Part shown: positions 15,632-24,587 of the stretch, piece by piece
Position numbering within the stretch: the first letter of the stretch is position 1
How the letters are laid out: every line of letters starts with the position of its first letter
Source of the DNA: Pseudonocardiaceae bacterium
GTDB lineage: Bacteria; Actinomycetota; Actinomycetes; Mycobacteriales; Pseudonocardiaceae
Reading direction: 5' to 3'
Length of the DNA: 64,000 nucleotides
NCBI GenBank assembly: GCA_009379845.1
Contig: WHSZ01000014.1
Span: 36,472-100,471, forward strand
The notes under the pieces: model-generated
Told to the model about the DNA's origin: nothing
Database searches by the model: none
Seen by the model: only the letters and a program-made list of their open reading frames with translations
Position numbers and translations under genes: made by a program

Positions 15632-16441
15632 GTGCACCGTTCGGGCGTTCACCACGATGACTTGGCGTTGGACGGCGCCGTGGTCCTCCATGCGGCGTTC
15701 ACACCCACGGAGGTAACCCGCCTTCGGATGGGGGTGGAGGCGGCCGTCGAGCGCATCACGCGGTGTGCGCGGTCCGAGCCGGAGCCGGTGGCCACGAGCC
15801 AGTCGAGCCAGGGGCACCGCCTGCAAACCGTGCACGGCACGTCGATTCATTGGGAGCCGGACACCAGCCGGCCAACGGTGCGGAATCTCCGGCCGGTAAC
15901 GCACTTGGATGCGCGTCTCACGCAACTCTGGGACGAGCCACGCCTGACCCGACCGGCAGCCGATCTTCTCGGGGTGCCCGAGGTTGGCCCGCTCACCTCG
16001 AAGATCAGCTTCAAGCGGGCCGGGGTGGGCTCGGAGTTCATCTGGCATCAGGACTACACGTTCCTCCAGCGCTTCCTGGGAACCGCCGCACGGGAAGCCG
16101 TGACCGCCATGGTGTTGCTCGACGACGCGGATGCGGACAACGGAGCGCTGACCCTGGTTCCGGGGAGCCACCTCGCCGGGCCGCGGCCCGACGGCGAGCC
16201 ACCGAACGCCGCCGACGCGCCACCGGTCACCATCGAGGCGGCGGCGGGATCGGTGCTGCTGTTCCCGACCCTGATGCTGCACAGCTCGGGGCCGAATCGA
16301 TCCGAACGAGACCGCCGGGCGCTGCTCCTCCTCTACCAGCCCGCGGGCCGTCCCAACCTCGACGAAACCCACTCACGGGTGGCCGAGACGGGCGGCGGCG
16401 ACCAGGTCACGAGCACCGCGGGATTCGGGAGCGGTGAGTAG
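15632..16441 (+). CDS. Phytanoyl-CoA dioxygenase (PhyH) family Fe(II)/2-oxoglutarate oxygenase
   Basis: A 269-residue PhyH-fold protein. The HxD iron ligands are in FIWHQDYTF (about residue 134), the distal His is in LMLHSSGPN (about 213) and an Arg-rich 2-oxoglutarate site follows (RDRRALLLLYQP). LTLVPGSH is the usual double-stranded-helix motif. The GTG at 15632 follows gagaggaag. The 3' end overlaps the tail of the ABC ATPase gene by 69 bases, tail to tail, so both transcripts are antisense there. It could hydroxylate a product of the neighbouring metallophore-like operon, but only its position suggests this. Confidence 0.84.
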   Translation: MHRSGVHHDDLALDGAVVLHAAFTPTEVTRLRMGVEAAVERITRCARSEPEPVATSQSSQGHRLQTVHGTSIHWEPDTSRPTVRNLRPVTHLDARLTQLWDEPRLTRPAADLLGVPEVGPLTSKISFKRAGVGSEFIWHQDYTFLQRFLGTAAREAVTAMVLLDDADADNGALTLVPGSHLAGPRPDGEPPNAADAPPVTIEAAAGSVLLFPTLMLHSSGPNRSERDRRALLLLYQPAGRPNLDETHSRVAETGGGDQVTSTAGFGSGE

Positions 16442-17935
16442 CCGGTAGGTGGATGCGGTTTCCACGCAGCGCCCGTCCTGCAGCAGGCAGATCTGATCCG
16501 CGATGCCCGAAATCGCGGCCAGATCGTGGCTGATCAGCATCAAGCTGATGTCCATCGTGGAGCGCGCATGCGCAAGGACGTCCAGCAGTTCGGCCTGGTT
16601 GACCAGATCCAACGACGCGGTGATCTCGTCGCACAGCAGCACGGCTGGACGTGCGAGTAGCGCCCTAGCCAACGCGGCACGCCGCAACTGCCCGCCGGAG
16701 AGCTCGAAGGGATGGCGGAGCAGCTGATCCGCTCGTAGGCCAAGTGATTCGCAGAGCTCGATTGCCTCGCGCCTGGCGTCCTCCCGTGCCATGCCGCGCA
16801 GCAGCCGTGCCGTCCTGGCCACCTGGACACCCACCGGCCGGTACTCGTCGAACGACGCACTGGCGTCCTGATGGACGTACTGCACCAGGCGCCGCTGCGC
16901 GGGTCCGCGTTGCCGCGCGGTCGCGGCCAGTGGTACGTCGCCGAGCAGCACCTGCCCGGTGCCCGGCCGGGTCAGTCCCGCCACGCATCGGGCCAGCGTG
17001 GTCTTGCCCGCACCGGAGCGACCGATGATCGCAAGGCACTGCCCGCCAGGGAGTACCAGGTTGATGTCGGCGAGCAGCTCGGTGCCGTCCGTGGCCCGCC
17101 GGCCGAGCCCGCGCACGACCAGATCACGCACGCCGTGCCTGGTACCGCGCGCGCCGGTTGGCCTGTCAAGCAACCGTGGTTCCGAGGCGAGCAGCCGCCG
17201 GCTGTGCGGCTGTGCGGGGGCGTGCAGCGGGCGGGTGCCAGGGCCGTGTTCGATCACCCGGCCGTCCTGCAGCACGATCACCTCATCGGCAAGCCGGCGG
17301 GCGAGCGCCAGGTCGTGGGTGAGCAGCACCAAGGCCGTGCCGGCGCCGACCAGCCCGGCCAGCATGTTGGTGACATCGGCTTTCGTCGTTGTGTCCAGCC
17401 CGGTGGTGGGTTCGTCCAGCACCAGGACCTCCGGCCGGGTGATCAGCGCCAGCGCCAGCGCCACCCGCTGCTGCTGCCCGCCGGAGAGCTGGTGCGGGTA
17501 GCGGCGCAGCAGCCACGGCTCGGCAGGCATCTGGGCCGCGTGCAGCGCCTCGGCAACCGCGGTGCGGCGGGCCGAACGGTGCCGGTGCCGCAGCCCCGCG
17601 TACTCCGCGAGCACGGACCCGATGCGGCGCACCGGATTCAGCACGGTCGCGGGGTGTTGCGGGAGATGCCCCAACACGCCGGCACGCGCCGCGCGGCGCC
17701 GCCGATCCGGTAGGCCGAGCAGTTCGGTGCCGTGTAACCGGACGCTGCCGGCCAGTTCGATACCGTGCCGGTACTCGCCGTGTAGCGCGAGCCCGAGCGT
17801 GGTCTTGCCGCTGCCGGACTCTCCGAGCACCGCGAGCACCCGCCCCGGAAAGATGCTCAGCTCGATTCCGTCCAGCAGGGTGTGGCCGGACGCGCGGGCA
17901 CGGAGGCCGGACGTGGCGAGGATGGCTTCGGTCAC
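16373..17935 (-). CDS. Fused double ATPase of a Dpp/Opp/Nik-type ABC importer
   Basis: One 520-residue polypeptide carries two complete ABC ATPase domains. The first (about 1-245) has Walker A GESGSGKTTLG, signature LSGGQQQRVALAL and Walker B VLVLDEPTT. The second (about 270-510) has GRSGAGKTTLARCV, LSGGQLRRAALARAL and VLLCDEITAS. These correspond to DppD and DppF. The GTG at 17935 overlaps the permease stop by 4 bases. It is the last gene of the riboswitch operon and energises uptake through the two upstream permeases. Confidence 0.92.
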   Translation of the reverse strand: MTEAILATSGLRARASGHTLLDGIELSIFPGRVLAVLGESGSGKTTLGLALHGEYRHGIELAGSVRLHGTELLGLPDRRRRAARAGVLGHLPQHPATVLNPVRRIGSVLAEYAGLRHRHRSARRTAVAEALHAAQMPAEPWLLRRYPHQLSGGQQQRVALALALITRPEVLVLDEPTTGLDTTTKADVTNMLAGLVGAGTALVLLTHDLALARRLADEVIVLQDGRVIEHGPGTRPLHAPAQPHSRRLLASEPRLLDRPTGARGTRHGVRDLVVRGLGRRATDGTELLADINLVLPGGQCLAIIGRSGAGKTTLARCVAGLTRPGTGQVLLGDVPLAATARQRGPAQRRLVQYVHQDASASFDEYRPVGVQVARTARLLRGMAREDARREAIELCESLGLRADQLLRHPFELSGGQLRRAALARALLARPAVLLCDEITASLDLVNQAELLDVLAHARSTMDISLMLISHDLAAISGIADQICLLQDGRCVETASTYRLLTAPESRGARDLVAAARLGHP

Positions 17936-18735
17936 GCCGGCACCACCCGCCGGTTCGCCAGCGCCCGATCCACCACCAGATTGCCACCGGTACACAGCAC
18001 GACCAGCAGCGCGGCCGGGACGAGCACGGCGAGTGGCTGGATGAACACCGCCTCCCGATTACGTTCGATCAGCACCGCCCAGTCGCTTGTGGACGGTTCC
18101 AGCCCAAACCCGAGGAAGTTCGCCGAGGCGATCAGGTACAGCACCAGGATCAGCCGGCTGCCGGCGTCCACCAAGGTCGGCCCGAGCACCGTGCGGCCCA
18201 CGTAGCCGAGGTGGATCCGCCACCAGGGTTCGCCTTGCAGCGTCATGGCCTCCACCGCGGCACGGCATCCGGGCGCCAGCGCCGCACCTCGCACCAGTCG
18301 GACCACGGCGGGCAGCTGCAACGCCGCGGCGGTCACGATCAGCATGCCGGCGCCCTGCCGGCCGGTCGCCGCCAGCACCAGCAGCACGAGCAGGCCGGGC
18401 AGCGCGAGTAGCAAGTCCAGCACCCGCAGCAGCGCCTCGTCCAACCACCGGTGCCGCTGCCCGGCGGCCAGCAGCGCGAGCGGGACACCGGCGAGGTAAC
18501 ACAGCAGCAACGCCAGCCCGGCCAGCAGCAGGACCGAACGCCCGCCGGTGAGCACCAGCGCGAGCACGTCCCTGCCGAGCACGTCGGTGCCGAGCGGGTG
18601 CGCGTCGCTCGGTGGCCGCAGCGGAGCCGCCTCGGATCGCGGCGAACCGGCCACCAGCGGCCCGGCAAGGGCCGTGGCCACCGGTGCTGCCAGCAGCACC
18701 CAGCCGAGCACCGCGGTCGGCGACAACCGTTTCAC
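17932..18735 (-). CDS. ABC transporter permease, DppC/NikC type
   Basis: From the GTG at 18735 the protein has 267 residues, about six membrane helices and the DppC features HPLGTDVLGRDVLALVLTGG near the N-terminus and ANFLGFGLEPSTSDWAVLI. The longer ORF to 19056 overlaps the upstream permease and is rejected. The start overlaps the DppB stop (GTGA). Family transporters import peptides, nickel or metal-metallophore complexes; the operon context favours the last. Confidence 0.9.
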   Translation of the reverse strand: MKRLSPTAVLGWVLLAAPVATALAGPLVAGSPRSEAAPLRPPSDAHPLGTDVLGRDVLALVLTGGRSVLLLAGLALLLCYLAGVPLALLAAGQRHRWLDEALLRVLDLLLALPGLLVLLVLAATGRQGAGMLIVTAAALQLPAVVRLVRGAALAPGCRAAVEAMTLQGEPWWRIHLGYVGRTVLGPTLVDAGSRLILVLYLIASANFLGFGLEPSTSDWAVLIERNREAVFIQPLAVLVPAALLVVLCTGGNLVVDRALANRRVVPA

Positions 18736-19673
18736 GCCACCATCTCCCGCTGCGGTACCAGCCGTCGGGCGGCCAGATCCGCGAGTAGATTGATGGCCAC
18801 GGTGGTTGCCGCGAACACCAGCGCGTAGCCCTGTACGGCTGGCAGATCGCGAGCCTTGACCGCGTCGACGAACGCGGAACCCAAGCCCGGCAACGCGAAC
18901 AGCGCCTCCACCACGACTACACCGCCCAGCAGCCCATCCACGGTGCGGGCCAGCTGCTGCACCGCGGGCCGCACCGCGTTGGGCAGCACGTGCCTGGCAA
19001 GCACGGTGCGTTCCGGCAGGCCGAGCAGCCGCGCGTGGATCGCGTACTCCGCGCACGTCGCCTCCGCCACGCCGATCCGCACCTGCCGAGCCAGCGCGCA
19101 GAGCTGCTTACTCACCAGCACCGCGACCGGCAGCACCAGCACGGCCGGCTCGCTGGCCAACGACCAGCCGGAGAGGCCAGCCGCGGTGGCCGGCAACCAC
19201 CCCGCTTGCACGCACAGCAAACCGATCAGCAGCAGCCCGAGCGCGAACTCCGGTACCGAATTCAGCAGCACCGCGACGGAACTGAGCGCGCGATCGGTTC
19301 GCGACCCCTGCCGCATCCCGCTCGCCATCCCGATCCCCAATGCCAGCGGAATCACCAGCGTAAGCGTGAGAATCGTGAGCAGCGCGGTGGTCGCGACGCC
19401 GCGGGCCAGCTGGTCCGCGACGGGTTCCCCGGTCAGCAACGAGGTACCGAAGTCGCCGTGCAGCAGGCCGCCCGTCCAGTCCAGGAACCGCTCGTGCGCC
19501 GGCCGATCCAGCTGGAGTCGTTCGCGCAGCGCAGCCACCTGCTCGTCGGTAGCGTGCTCGCCCGCGATTACGATCGCGGTGTCACCTGGCAGTACCGCGG
19601 TCAGCGTGAACACCGCGGCCAGGACCGCGGCGATCTGTAGGACCGCGACCGCGAGCCGGGCAACCCGCGACAT
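18732..19673 (-). CDS. ABC transporter permease, DppB/NikB type
   Basis: From the ATG at 19673 the protein has 313 residues and opens with a membrane helix (RLAVAVLQIAAVLAAVFTLT). It has DppB-family features such as LPGDTAIVIAGEHATDEQ, GDFGTSLLTGEPV and VNSVPEFALGLLLIG, though the last begins LLNSVPEF in this protein. About six membrane segments are visible. It starts 2 bases after the solute-binding-protein stop. The extended ORF to 19787 overlaps that gene. Confidence 0.9.
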   Translation of the reverse strand: MSRVARLAVAVLQIAAVLAAVFTLTAVLPGDTAIVIAGEHATDEQVAALRERLQLDRPAHERFLDWTGGLLHGDFGTSLLTGEPVADQLARGVATTALLTILTLTLVIPLALGIGMASGMRQGSRTDRALSSVAVLLNSVPEFALGLLLIGLLCVQAGWLPATAAGLSGWSLASEPAVLVLPVAVLVSKQLCALARQVRIGVAEATCAEYAIHARLLGLPERTVLARHVLPNAVRPAVQQLARTVDGLLGGVVVVEALFALPGLGSAFVDAVKARDLPAVQGYALVFAATTVAINLLADLAARRLVPQREMVA

Positions 19674-19675
19674 GC

Positions 19676-21208
19676 CTAACCGAGCGACGCGTGGTCGAAG
19701 CGGGCCCAGTGCAGCGAATTCGGTGGTGCCGCGCGCATTCCACGTAGTTCGCTGGAGATGCCCACGTTCCAGTTGCTGAATCCCCACACCAGCATCCCGC
19801 TGTCGTCGCGGATCAGGCGTTGCGCGTCGGCCAGCAGCTCGGCCCGCCTGGATTCGTCCTGGGTGCGCAGCGCCCGGTCGAACAGTGAGTCGAACCCGTC
19901 GGACTGGTAGCCGGTGTAGTTGTTGATGTCCGCCCCGCCGCGCATCCGCTGCCCGAGAAACGTCGCGATCGGCAGCGACGAGGTGCGGGTATGCCCGGCG
20001 ACGCCACTGCTTTCGATGTCCGAGAAGTACGTCTCGGATGGCCCCACCCGTGGGCTGACCCGGATGCCGAGCTCGCCCAGCTGCTCGGCGATCAGGCTCG
20101 CGGCCGATTCGAAGTACGGATCCACCGCGCTGGTGTTGAGCTCGAACGTGAGCCGCTCCGCCCCGGCCTCCCGCAGCAGCGACCTCGCCCGATCGACGTC
20201 CCGACGGCGTTGCGGCAGCGCATCCGGGTAGTACTTCAGCCCCTTGCCGAACAGGTCGTTGCCGAGCTGACCCTGACCGCTCAGCGCGACGTCCAGCAAC
20301 TGCTGCCGGTCAACACCGAGCAGCACGGCCCGTAGCACCCTCGGGTCTGAGAACGGCCGGCGGTCGATCTTGAACGCCACCGCTTGCATCGTGCCGTGCT
20401 TGGCGGCGAGCACCCCGGTGCGCTGCTCCCGATGCAGCTGGCTCGCGGAGTTCGCGCTCACGTCGTTCGCGTAGTGCACCTGACCGGAAAGCAACGCGGA
20501 AACTCGTGCGGCTTCCTCGTTGATGGACACGAACTCCACCTCAGCCGGGTTCGGCGCCCCCGCCCAGTACCCGTCGAACTTCTTGACCACTGTGGACTGT
20601 CCTGGCTGGAATGAGGCAAGCTGGAACGGCCCGGATCCCACGGGGGCACGGAACTTCGTGGTGCCGGCCGGGATGATCTCGGCGCCGGGTGCACCCCATG
20701 CGGAGGCGAATTCGAAGTTCGGTGCGCGCAGTACCAACTCCAGTTCGGTGGCGGATCGTGCCCGACTGGCTGTGAAGTCCACCTCGGTGAAGTACGGCCG
20801 GGCCGGCGACGCGGTGGCCGCCTCGGCGATCCGCCGGTAGCTGTACAGCACATCCTTCGCTGTCACCGGGCGGCCGTCATGGAATCTGGCCCGCCGCAAC
20901 CGGATCAGCCATCGCGTGCCGGTGGGGTCCGGTTCCCACGACACGGCGAGCCTTGGCACCGAACGCATCTCGCTGTCATAACCGACCAGCGTGTCGAACA
21001 ACGCCTTCGCCCTTGCCTGATCCACGAACAACGAGCTGATATGTGGATCAAGGGATTCGCCGGAACCACCGGTGGGAAACGCCGCGCGGATCCGGTTGTC
21101 CGAACCCGCGCCGGTACCGCCACAGCCGGGCACGGCCGCGATCGACGCCGCGGCCGCGAGCGCGGTGCCGAGCACCCGCCGCCTGCTCCACGAGCTTTCC
21201 ACCGTCAC
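19676..21208 (-). CDS. Family 5 extracellular solute-binding lipoprotein of the ABC importer
   Basis: From the GTG at 21208 the protein has 510 residues. The N-terminus has a twin-arginine-like RRRVLGTA, a hydrophobic stretch and a lipobox VPGC, so a membrane-anchored lipoprotein is expected. The mature part is a family 5 (DppA/NikA) binding protein (FHDGRPVTAKDVLYSYRRI, VEFVSINEEAARVSALLSG). The start overlaps the MFS stop by 4 bases. By analogy with CntA-type proteins it may bind a metal-loaded small ligand; no ligand-specific residue can be read off. Confidence 0.9.
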   Translation of the reverse strand: MTVESSWSRRRVLGTALAAAASIAAVPGCGGTGAGSDNRIRAAFPTGGSGESLDPHISSLFVDQARAKALFDTLVGYDSEMRSVPRLAVSWEPDPTGTRWLIRLRRARFHDGRPVTAKDVLYSYRRIAEAATASPARPYFTEVDFTASRARSATELELVLRAPNFEFASAWGAPGAEIIPAGTTKFRAPVGSGPFQLASFQPGQSTVVKKFDGYWAGAPNPAEVEFVSINEEAARVSALLSGQVHYANDVSANSASQLHREQRTGVLAAKHGTMQAVAFKIDRRPFSDPRVLRAVLLGVDRQQLLDVALSGQGQLGNDLFGKGLKYYPDALPQRRRDVDRARSLLREAGAERLTFELNTSAVDPYFESAASLIAEQLGELGIRVSPRVGPSETYFSDIESSGVAGHTRTSSLPIATFLGQRMRGGADINNYTGYQSDGFDSLFDRALRTQDESRRAELLADAQRLIRDDSGMLVWGFSNWNVGISSELRGMRAAPPNSLHWARFDHASLG

Positions 21209-22485
21209 GATGTCGCACTCCTTTCGCGCGCCGGTGTGGCGCGTTCCGTCCGAGCGAGCAGGCCCCGGCGTTCCATGGTGGCGGCACCCGCGGAGCCGGC
21301 CAGCCCCACCGCGAGGAGCGCCAGCCACGGCAGCCAGCGCAGTGCCGGCTCGCCCGTTCCGTCCAGCAGGGCCCCGACGAGCCCGCTCACGCCTGCCGCG
21401 ACGAGGCTGGAAACCAGGTAGTAGAAGCCGTAGTAGGTGCCAGCGAGGCGCTCACTTCCCACGATCGGCAGCAACTCCATGGCGAATGGGTTGGTGATCG
21501 CCATACCCACGGTGAACAGCGCCGTGGTCAGCAGCACGGGCAGGCAGGCGAGAAGTACCTGCGGGCTGAGCTCGCTGGCCTGCCTGGCCGGTTGCAGCGG
21601 GCCGCTGAGTAACACGGGCAGGAACGAGGCGCCCATGCACGCCAATCCGATGGTCACCGAACGGCCCGCGGTCCACCGGTTGCGGCACCACTGGGTGATC
21701 CGTACCTGGCCGAAAATCCCGATCAGTGTGGACACCGCGAACACCGCCGCGATCGCCCCGGCGAACCCGGACACTCGCTGCGCCTCGAGCGGCAATGTAA
21801 GGTACAGCTGGTTGTACAGCCCGAAGTACGCGGACAGCGTGAGGGTGAAGCCCAGAAATCGCCGATTGCCAACGACTTCCCGCCAGCTCGCCAGCATGCC
21901 CTGCTGCTGCGGTTCCACCTGCCGCCGAGGCAGCAGCGCGAGCTGCGCGACGGTGAGCGCGGCGAACGCCACACAGGCCACCAGCGCCACGAGCCGGAAA
22001 TCCACCATCAGCAGCGCGGTGCCGAGTAGCGGCCCGACCAGAGTGCCGGCGTGCGCGAAGACGTTGAACACCGCGAATACCTCGGCGCGTCGCTCGCCGC
22101 CCTCGTGCATGAGGTAGGTGCGTACCGCTGGGTTGAACAACGCGCCGGCGAGTCCGGTGAGCACCGCGGCGGCCAGCAACCCTGGCAGTGCGGTGAGCAC
22201 CGCGAACAACGCGAACGACACGACCCGCAGCGCGCAGCCGACGATGATCATCGGGCGGCAACCGAGCCGGTCGGCCGCGGTGCCGCCGATCAGGAACATG
22301 CCCTGCTGGCTGAGATTGCGCACCCCGAGTACCAGGCCGATCATCGCGGCGCCGTAGCCGAGATCGTCTCGCATGTACGAAGCGAGGAACGGCAGCAGCA
22401 TGTAGAAGCCGACATTGATGCCGAGCTGGTTGATCACCAGTAGCTTCGCCGCGGCGGACAGTTGCCGGAAGCCGATCTTGCTCAC
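21205..22485 (-). CDS. MFS transporter, probable small-molecule exporter
   Basis: From the GTG at 22485 the protein has 426 residues and about 12 membrane helices, with the MFS loop motif GTAADRLGCRPMIIVG between helices 2 and 3 and a sequence typical of drug:H+ antiporter-like exporters. It overlaps both the PLP enzyme upstream and the solute-binding protein downstream by 4 bases. Its place between a biosynthetic pair and an importer recalls CntE in staphylopine operons, which suggests it secretes the ligand made by the first two genes (inference). Confidence 0.88.
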   Translation of the reverse strand: MSKIGFRQLSAAAKLLVINQLGINVGFYMLLPFLASYMRDDLGYGAAMIGLVLGVRNLSQQGMFLIGGTAADRLGCRPMIIVGCALRVVSFALFAVLTALPGLLAAAVLTGLAGALFNPAVRTYLMHEGGERRAEVFAVFNVFAHAGTLVGPLLGTALLMVDFRLVALVACVAFAALTVAQLALLPRRQVEPQQQGMLASWREVVGNRRFLGFTLTLSAYFGLYNQLYLTLPLEAQRVSGFAGAIAAVFAVSTLIGIFGQVRITQWCRNRWTAGRSVTIGLACMGASFLPVLLSGPLQPARQASELSPQVLLACLPVLLTTALFTVGMAITNPFAMELLPIVGSERLAGTYYGFYYLVSSLVAAGVSGLVGALLDGTGEPALRWLPWLALLAVGLAGSAGAATMERRGLLARTERATPARERSATS

Positions 22486-23600
22486 CGGTCGACCTCCCGC
22501 GCGCACACGTCGCACGTCGCCGGCGGGTCACCGCGCCTGCCACACGGATCGCTGACCGTCCGGCACCGGCTCCAGTAACCGGTTGCCGCGCTCGGACCAT
22601 CCACTTCGGACGGTTCGGTGATGGTGGCAGGGATGAGACCGTGGCCTCGGCAGAACTCGTCGTCGTAGATGGTGTCCCAGTAGCGGTGCGGGCCGTCCGG
22701 GAACACCGCGACCACCCGGTCGGTGCCGGCCTTCCTCGCGTGCCAGGCGGCGACCAGTGCCGCCGCGCCGGTACTCCAGCCGCCTGTGACGAACGTGTCC
22801 CTGGCTAGCCGGCGGCAGGCGTCGACCGTTTCCGCCGGACCCACCCAGTGCACTTCGTCGAATGCCCGGTAAGCGACGTTGTCCGGGTGAATGCTGCTAC
22901 CGAGCCCGCGCATCAGCCGCCGGCCCGCTTGCTGGCCGAACACCGTGGAGCCCGGCGTGTCCACGCCGATGATCCGCACCGCTGGCCAGCGCTCGCGTAG
23001 CACGGCGGCGATTCCCGCGCTGTGCCCGCCGGTTCCTACACTGCATACCACCGCGTCCAGCTCGTCGAACTGCTCGACGAGTTCGCGTCCCAGCCCTCGG
23101 TAGCCCTCCGGGTTGTCCGGGTTGTTGTACTGGTCCGGCCAGTAGGCTTCCGGCAGCCCGGCGAGCAGCCGTCGCACCACTTCGAGCCGGGCGCGCTGCC
23201 AGCCGCCCACCGGATGGGGGCGATGCACGATCTCGACTCGGGCGCCGTAGGCGCACAGCAGCGCGCGCGTCATCGGGTCGAGCTCCTGATCGGCCACGAT
23301 CACCACGGGATGCCCGAGCAGGGCGCCGACATAGGCCAGCCCGATGCCCAGCGTTCCGCTGCTGGACTCCACCACGGTGCCGCCCGGCCCGAGCTGCCCA
23401 CGGTCTCGTGCCCCGGTGAGCATGGCCAGTGCGGCCCGTGCCTTCATGCTTCCGGGCGCGAGCCCTTCGAGCTTCGCCCAGAACCCGGGATGCCGCTTGG
23501 GAAGTGGAGTGTCCACACGCAACGCTGGGGTGTTGCCGATCAACTCGAGTAGTGATGCGCACCGCGGCCCGCCGAGCCGCTCCGCCGAGGTGGTCATCAT
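22482..23600 (-). CDS. Cysteine-synthase-family PLP enzyme with Cys-rich C-terminal extension
   Basis: A 372-residue fold-type II PLP enzyme: lysine motif APGSMKARAAL (about 54), substrate loop ESSSGTLGIGLAYVG, phosphate loop SVGTGGHSAGIAAVL. It is most like the cysteine synthase/SbnA group, which makes or uses beta-substituted alanines; SbnA yields a diaminopropionate precursor of a siderophore. The last 40 residues carry several cysteines (RCRTVSDPCG, TCDVCARE) outside the catalytic fold, perhaps a metal site. The ATG overlaps the DUF364 stop (ATGA). Likely substrate is a serine or cysteine derivative, unproven. Confidence 0.87.
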   Translation of the reverse strand: MMTTSAERLGGPRCASLLELIGNTPALRVDTPLPKRHPGFWAKLEGLAPGSMKARAALAMLTGARDRGQLGPGGTVVESSSGTLGIGLAYVGALLGHPVVIVADQELDPMTRALLCAYGARVEIVHRPHPVGGWQRARLEVVRRLLAGLPEAYWPDQYNNPDNPEGYRGLGRELVEQFDELDAVVCSVGTGGHSAGIAAVLRERWPAVRIIGVDTPGSTVFGQQAGRRLMRGLGSSIHPDNVAYRAFDEVHWVGPAETVDACRRLARDTFVTGGWSTGAAALVAAWHARKAGTDRVVAVFPDGPHRYWDTIYDDEFCRGHGLIPATITEPSEVDGPSAATGYWSRCRTVSDPCGRRGDPPATCDVCAREVDR

Positions 23601-24436
23601 TCGTGATCATCGCCCCCGTACGTGTAGATCTCGCCTGCGTCACCGGTCAGCCAGAAGAACGGGTACGGCTCCGCGGACAACGCGTCCACACCGGAACCGA
23701 GCAACTCGCGCAGCACGGCGCTGCCGGTCTGCGCGAACACCACCAGCGGCAGTTCGCGGCTCCGGCAGCACGCGGCGATCTCCTCGAAGGTGCCGTTGCC
23801 GAGCACCATCCCGGAGGCGAGCACTGCCCGGCAGCCCGCGATCGCGCGGGTGTGATCCCGCAGCACCGGCTCGCCCCACTCGGTGCGCCCGCCTTTCAGA
23901 TCGCAGGCCCGGTAGCTGATGCCCCGTTCCCGCAACGCGGCAAGCACCGAGTTGACCACGCCGATCACCGCGACCGGCCCGCCGTCGGGTAGCAGGGATA
24001 CCACCGCGCGGGCCCGGGCCTCGGATTTCCGCAGCGAGTCCCCGGCCGGCAGACGCACGGCGCGGGCACTCGGATGCCGGGCGTGTGGCAGCACGTTCAA
24101 CAGGTAAGCGTCCAAAGTGGCCACTCGCACGGCCCGGTCCGGGTGGCCGAGCAATTCGGCGACGCCGCGCCCGGCGGTATCTCGTACCGCACGCTCGTCG
24201 AGTTGTCCTGGCTCAACCGCGCAGGATCCGACGGCCGCGCCGACGCGGATGCTGAACACCGTGTTGAGGTAGCCGGCCTGCCGGCCGGCGTGCTTGGCTC
24301 CCTGCACGGTCAGGAAAGCCACGGATGCGTGGGTATCACTAGCGCGCTCGCGGGCGAAGTCGCCGGCGAGCGCGCGCCGCACAAGGGAGTCGAGGGTGGG
24401 CACGGTTGTTCGGGTAGCGGGCACAGGTGTCTCCAT
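23597..24436 (-). CDS. DUF4213/DUF364 (putative heavy-metal chelation) protein
   Basis: A 279-residue protein matching DUF4213 followed by the Rossmann-like DUF364 domain (VVSLLPDGGPVAVIGVVN, ASGMVLGNGTFEEIAACC, PLVVFAQTGSAVLRELLGSG). Pfam names DUF364 a putative heavy-metal chelation domain; its activity is unknown. It is the first large gene after the cobalamin riboswitch and leader ORF and overlaps the PLP gene by 4 bases, so both should be induced when cobalamin is scarce. A role in making or handling a metal ligand is inferred. Confidence 0.83.
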   Translation of the reverse strand: METPVPATRTTVPTLDSLVRRALAGDFARERASDTHASVAFLTVQGAKHAGRQAGYLNTVFSIRVGAAVGSCAVEPGQLDERAVRDTAGRGVAELLGHPDRAVRVATLDAYLLNVLPHARHPSARAVRLPAGDSLRKSEARARAVVSLLPDGGPVAVIGVVNSVLAALRERGISYRACDLKGGRTEWGEPVLRDHTRAIAGCRAVLASGMVLGNGTFEEIAACCRSRELPLVVFAQTGSAVLRELLGSGVDALSAEPYPFFWLTGDAGEIYTYGGDDHE

Positions 24437-24490: not shown

Positions 24491-24550
24491 TTACGTGCGG
24501 AAGTGTTCCTGTCGCTTCAGGACTGAGATGTGCGCCGCGTGGTGCCGCAT
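24491..24550 (-). CDS. 19-residue leader peptide between riboswitch and operon
   Basis: A short ORF (MRHHAAHISVLKRQEHFRT, stop TAA) has the best ribosome-binding site of the region, ggaggaggtaccc, immediately before its ATG. It lies just downstream of the cobalamin aptamer and ends 54 bases before the DUF364 start. Four of 19 residues are His. It may be the element the riboswitch directly controls, coupling translation or attenuation to the operon. It has loose resemblance (LKRQEHFR) to the short leader peptides found before sulfur-metabolism genes in actinobacteria, without their cysteines. Confidence 0.55.
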   Translation of the reverse strand: MRHHAAHISVLKRQEHFRT

Positions 24551-24587
24551 GGGTACCTCCTCCGGGGCTCCGCGACCCCGTGTGAAT

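Follow-up and report, generated by a model that had tools for sequence, protein, structure and literature searches.

Short upstream open reading frames (uORFs) that carry a regulatory signal from a leader structure to the next gene have been described in a few natural and engineered settings. The experimental precedent for a relay from a B12 riboswitch through a uORF to a gene is uPPE2 of M. tuberculosis (PMC11260477). There, the expression-platform hairpin of the riboswitch controls the Shine-Dalgarno (SD) sequence of a short ORF, and the SD-less ppe2, whose start overlaps the ORF stop as AUGA, depends on translation of this ORF through termination-reinitiation, while the content of the ORF is secondary. 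Synthetic ribo-attenuators (PMC5496857) are man-made devices in which a riboswitch precedes a 150-bp ORF with a TAATG junction, and ribosomes arriving on this ORF open a hairpin that masks a second ribosome-binding site (RBS). In Salmonella, translation of the tiny mgtQ ORF, which has no riboswitch and needs particular acidic codons, frees the following gene's RBS, which a stem-loop otherwise sequesters (PMC8092293). Finally, the Mg2+ Mbox of M. tuberculosis pe20 directly controls translation of a small uORF, Rv1805A, which has a highly conserved peptide and acts with Rho (PMC12810186).

We examined a leader of related plan in a 64,000-nucleotide stretch of DNA from a Pseudonocardiaceae bacterium (hereafter the window). 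The elements of the leader and its first gene are as follows, with both SD sequences, the uORF and the two arms read from the sequence:

24751-24580, minus strand: cobalamin riboswitch aptamer (RF00174, 100.9 bits, E 4.5e-24)
24563..24580, minus strand: P13-like hairpin CGGGG-UCGCGGAG-CCCCG (GGGG-UCGCGGAG-CCCC at 24579-24564), between the aptamer and the uORF SD and abutting the latter
24563-24556, minus strand: uORF SD GGAGGAGG, with a 5-nt spacer to the ATG
24550-24491, minus strand: 19-codon uORF encoding MRHHAAHISVLKRQEHFRT followed by a stop; position and size are conserved, the peptide is not
24489-24482, minus strand: 5′ arm of a second hairpin, GCACAGGU, at +4 to +11 (counted from the uORF stop codon's first base) and reachable by a terminating ribosome
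24428-24421, minus strand: 3′ arm of the second hairpin, ACCUGUGC, covering the DUF364 start codon
24430..24434, minus strand: DUF364 SD GGAGA, at -10 to -6 of GTG 24424
23597..24424, minus strand: DUF364 protein (PF04016, Pfam 23.6 bits against a cut-off of 23), start at GTG 24424 set by orthologues

The aptamer scores far above the gathering score of 31.5 bits and covers the full model (1-189). The P13-like hairpin that follows it is near-invariant across the 27 leaders assembled below. In the same set L5 GUCCCGCC (with CCCGC) is invariant and L13, UCG(C/A)GGA, nearly so; the two could pair, with no covariation to prove it, and the hairpin loop is a candidate kissing-loop partner of L5 on the model of metE and ppe2 in M. 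tuberculosis (PMC11260477). A preliminary description of this DNA had assigned the strongest RBS downstream of the aptamer to the 19-codon ORF, and this is confirmed: GGAGGAGG stands 5 nt before the ATG, and the RBS of DUF364, GGAGACACCU-GUG, is weaker. The uORF reads ATG CGG CAC CAC GCG GCG CAC ATC TCA GTC CTG AAG CGA CAG GAA CAC TTC CGC ACG TAA and includes four histidines among its 19 residues. DUF364 probably starts at GTG 24424 and not at the longest-ORF ATG 24436, which overlaps the RBS; its orthologues mostly keep GGAG, a short spacer, and then GTG or ATG.

Relatives of this leader were collected by searching for the DUF364 protein in 151 family genomes and then as an alignment in genome contigs. 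Every orthologue of 63-69% identity from the family-genome search (L008-L020) has a cobalamin riboswitch, and the matches of 59-68% identity from a second scan (L037-L049) have a riboswitch leader as judged by motif, with representatives verified by Rfam. DUF364 matches of lower identity lack the riboswitch: in a scan of 80 loci the motif occurs only in the 13 best matches (59-68%), and the other 67 (≤59%, mainly Streptomyces and Rhodococcus) are without it. Of 392 family genomes, 26 contain the motif formed by the hairpin and SD; a class sample of 395 genomes yielded it only in the window's own genome.

The resulting set comprises 27 distinct leaders from Pseudonocardiaceae, of which 22 precede DUF364, one precedes a decayed DUF364 (L131) and four precede a paralogous operon that begins with a solute-binding protein (L127, L135, L144 and L145). 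RF00174 matches all 27, that is, the window and 26 others. In all 27, too, the SD is followed at 3-10 nt by a start codon (expectation 0.23 per shuffled leader), the frame closes at a stop before or, in one leader, overlapping the gene start (expectation 0.41), and the uORF spans 17-38 codons (expectation 0.20 for 16-39 codons), with kinship reducing the effective number of leaders to about 11-21 clusters. The invariance of the SD reflects how the set was selected, because the SD is part of the search motif that defines it. Homologous operons lacking the ORF were looked for, and none was encountered in these 27 leaders; the uORF is present in every riboswitch-bearing DUF364 operon found. This supports the earlier proposal of a riboswitch-plus-leader-ORF system in which the ORF is the unit under regulation. 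The frame of the uORF relative to the gene varies (0, 1 and 2) across leaders; these mixed frames, together with the stops in all leaders, therefore rule out that the uORF is an N-terminal extension of DUF364.

In L131, DUF364 appears to have been deleted and fused in frame to the next gene, for a PLP enzyme, with an 11-bp hairpin kept in the leader. In some genomes of the family the same succession of riboswitch, hairpin and uORF precedes the separate solute-binding-protein operon (L127, L135, L144 and L145), and L144 seems to have an additional small ORF whose end shares an ATGA with the binding protein.

The regulated region reaches beyond 24491-24550, because bases just 3′ of the uORF stop pair with the DUF364 start. 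In the window, GCACAGGU and ACCUGUGC form a perfect 8-bp helix that is also present in the predicted fold. Helices of 8-11 bp occur in the clearest lineages, and their sequences change wholesale between lineages while complementarity is kept, as in L016 (UCCACAUCGCG/UGCGAUGUGGA), L020 (CUCCACAUCG/CGAUGUGGAG), L131 (CCGCGCAGGUC/GACCUGCGUGG) and L037 (GUCUCCCG/CGGGAGAC). No single consensus second structure was found among the leaders, and the arms lie at different places in different lineages; complementarity was therefore tested by pairing the uORF-stop region of each leader with its own gene-start region and then with those of other leaders.

Own pairings are stronger than swapped ones when contiguous helices are compared in 13 chosen representatives (p=4e-4). 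With random representatives drawn per cluster, p ranges from 0.0007 (19 clusters at 75%) to 0.0017 (9 clusters), and for DUF364 leaders alone (15 clusters) z=-4.28 and p=0.001. Contiguous helices, and then cluster-controlled permutations, were used in place of RNAduplex with free interior loops, which was too permissive (median p 0.22). The beginning of the uORF gives no own-versus-swapped signal with the gene start. Eighteen control windows from the gene body and aptamer of DUF364 leaders yielded z values of -1.70 to +1.45, none with p below 0.05; one control window (gene body +40 to +65) gave p 0.009-0.02 when the solute-binding-protein leaders were included.

Predicted folding energies address the same relationship. 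Opening the DUF364 start region of the window is predicted to cost 16.6 kcal/mol, compared with 9.8 +/- 2.4 in shuffles (p=0.02), and removing the bases that a ribosome at the uORF stop would cover lowers this cost to 11.2 kcal/mol (5.4 less). For the window alone this drop has p=0.10 against shuffles; taken over the representatives, a ribosome at the stop lowers the opening energy by more than in shuffles (Wilcoxon p=0.005, Fisher p=9e-4). L009, L019, L049 and L119 have a weak hairpin or none by the simple helix measure, and the opening-energy model shows no gain in L040, L045, L017/L120 and the long-gap leaders L127, L144 and L145. The defining feature of hairpin-based translational coupling, in which a downstream RBS or start pairs with upstream sequence that the ribosome covers, is present here at the level of sequence.

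From these observations we consider it likely that the leader works as a two-step translational relay, in which the apo-riboswitch permits translation of the uORF and this translation opens the operon. In the first step, the aptamer and the P13-like hairpin would control access to GGAGGAGG, which B12 would close. When B12 is low, ribosomes would translate the 19-codon uORF, whose amino-acid sequence would be immaterial, and a ribosome at its stop would occupy the 5′ arm, freeing the DUF364 RBS and start that are otherwise buried in the second hairpin. DUF364 could then be translated from its own SD, and the following genes through stop/start overlaps such as the ATGA at 23600-23597. At high B12, no ribosome would enter the uORF, the second hairpin would stay closed and the operon would be silent. 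We infer both that the uORF is actually translated and that the ribosome opens the second hairpin mechanically; the presumed B12-OFF direction follows the riboswitch class, notably the work on M. tuberculosis metE and ppe2 (PMC11260477).

Several leaders bring the uORF stop and the gene start together by other means. In L135, which belongs to the sister riboswitch operon, uORF stop and binding-protein start have 4 nt in common (GTGA), and second copies of the motif also occur in two congeners. In L046 the gene starts 3 nt after the uORF stop (TAGGCCATG). Stop/start overlaps of the NUGA form are also seen in other operons: another B12 riboswitch in the window's own genome (L004, 45729-45856) is followed by an SD-led uORF of 19-20 codons that shares ATGA with a CbiC/CobH-like gene, and in a congener (L151) the overlap is GTGA and the peptide differs. 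The recurrence of overlaps and near contacts favours the view that the uORF serves translational coupling. A cursory class-wide survey of 59 loci turned up nine candidates, about seven of which look convincing by eye. Six loci in other actinomycete families (L186, L187, L193, L197, L209 and L224) have a B12 riboswitch and then a short SD-led ORF, with -4 to +5 nt between its end and a long ORF; by eye, several of the long ORFs look CobN-, CbiB- or chelatase-like. Such relays may be common.

Two other readings concern the nature of the frame itself. It could have arisen by chance, with the conserved GGAGGAGG merely part of the riboswitch fold, as might be suspected given that the DNA is GC-rich, that the SD abuts an invariant hairpin and that the peptide is unconserved. 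However, start spacing and length hold in 27 of 27 leaders and the complementarity centres on the ORF's own stop, and we regard a chance frame as highly improbable. The preliminary description had also raised the possibility of a small metal-binding peptide, and a functional product, whether a His-rich metal binder or a sensor that stalls on His or Arg codons, might be suspected from the four histidines and from pooled His codons that make up 40 of 480 (8.3%) in frame versus 18 of 461 (3.9%) and 24 of 461 (5.2%) in the other frames. Part of this excess may be supplied by the CUCCAC arm itself, and histidine is missing from the uORFs of the orthologues L008, L010, L012, L015 and L037. The proposed check of synonymous-site conservation speaks against selection on the peptide: over eight close pairs, pooled pN/pS is 0.82 in frame, near the value of one wrong frame (1.29 and 0.88 in the other two), and the alignments of several close pairs contain gaps whose length is not a multiple of three. 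Neither a conserved peptide nor regulatory codons, as expected of a peptide-dependent attenuator, were found in the leaders compared. Because the peptide is unconserved and several orthologues have no histidine, the uORF encodes neither a metal-binding peptide nor a His attenuator, and a functional peptide of any kind has very little chance of being correct. A loose N-terminal pattern, M-x-x-R/H-A-A-H/R, is common to the peptides of the window, L131, L144, L127, L145 and L013, which otherwise diverge, and cannot be separated from common descent of the initiation region. Conservation falls on where the uORF lies, on its RBS and on how its end complements the start of the next gene, and not on the peptide.

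Two further readings accept a translated uORF and assign it a different role. Its translation might chiefly shield the leader from Rho, so that a block by B12 exposes untranslated RNA and leads to termination before DUF364, and the hairpin is secondary. Rho-dependent termination has been described for mycobacterial riboswitch leaders with uORFs (PMC12810186; metE in PMC11260477), and shielding needs no conserved peptide; however, neither a uORF end specifically complementary to the gene start nor the 4-nt overlap of L135 would be expected from it, and shifts of the uPPE2 stop codon argued against Rho as the main cause there (PMC11260477). We consider this unlikely as the principal mechanism, and a Rho effect could act in addition to the relay. 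The uORF might instead be inhibitory, drawing ribosomes away as a decoy and so reducing DUF364 expression, in the way that translation of uMetE2 suppresses MetE in M. tuberculosis (PMC11260477). But uMetE2 lies inside the aptamer, whereas the present uORF is located downstream of it and has the leader's best RBS; moreover, opening-energy modelling predicts a gain when the uORF is translated, and in L135 and L046 the gene begins at the uORF stop. Inhibition by a decoy therefore seems quite improbable, and the two-step relay is the reading that we prefer.

Beyond DUF364, the operon continues on the same strand:

22482..23600, minus strand: PLP enzyme, SbnA/CysM-like (PF00291; best NCBIfam model SbnA, below its cut-off), whose start overlaps the DUF364 stop as ATGA
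21205..22515, minus strand: MFS transporter (PF07690)
19676..21328, minus strand: nickel/peptide-type solute-binding lipoprotein, SBP_bac_5 (PF00496; NikA-like models below cut-off)
18732-19787 and 17932-19056, minus strand: ABC permeases of nickel/cobalt type
16373-17995, minus strand: fused ABC ATPase of nickel/cobalt type

For the ABC set (16373..19787) the NCBIfam matches are Opp2B/Opp2C- and NikD/NikE-like, all below curated cut-offs. The region 16373-24424 places DUF364, an SbnA-like PLP enzyme, an MFS exporter and a NikA/Cnt-like ABC importer under one B12 riboswitch, and it looks as if it makes a metal chelator, perhaps one for cobalt, exports it and takes it up again. Because all NCBIfam matches fall below curated cut-offs, transport of cobalt or a metallophore is a guess from context and B12 control.

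M. tuberculosis ppe2 is the one B12 riboswitch-uORF relay with experimental support, and the present leaders would extend it to a family conserved in Pseudonocardiaceae. They would also add a second way of coupling, through a hairpin lock that sits at the uORF stop and evolves along with the gene start of each species. Unannotated uORFs are suggested to be a recurrent part of actinobacterial B12 riboswitches, and in such cases fusions of the aptamer to the annotated gene alone would miss the regulated unit. On balance, we favour a broader description as a natural ribo-attenuator: the riboswitch would leave the structural genes alone and gate only a content-free frame, and the moving ribosome would open a separately evolving operon lock. 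Such relays would have been taken up repeatedly by actinobacterial B12 riboswitches, their hairpin, NUGA-overlap and near-contact versions being interchangeable. The open-access literature searched, the coverage of which was incomplete, contained no description of a natural riboswitch relay with such a hairpin.

Set against the known systems, all 27 leaders share with uPPE2 a uORF whose SD lies directly under the riboswitch, and on the relay reading the window leader would also share with uPPE2 a downstream gene that depends on translation of an ORF whose content is secondary. Unlike ppe2, DUF364 has an SD of its own (GGAGA), placed in a second hairpin, and a 66-nt gap takes the place of the NUGA overlap (39-85 nt in most leaders); among the 27, only L135 has such an overlap and only L135 and L046 resemble uPPE2. 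The Mbox of pe20 similarly acts directly on translation of a small uORF, but it responds to Mg2+, works with Rho and controls a conserved peptide, unlike the window leader. With mgtQ the leader would share the release of a buried RBS when a tiny ORF is translated; it differs in having a riboswitch upstream and no conserved codon. The synthetic ribo-attenuators have the same succession of riboswitch, short ORF and hairpin-masked second RBS, which arriving ribosomes would open here too; the present leaders are natural, have uORFs of 17-38 codons and usually lack an overlap. The second half of the system is closer to mgtQ, and its overall plan is closer to the synthetic ribo-attenuators than to uPPE2; it would be a natural counterpart of a synthetic-biology part.
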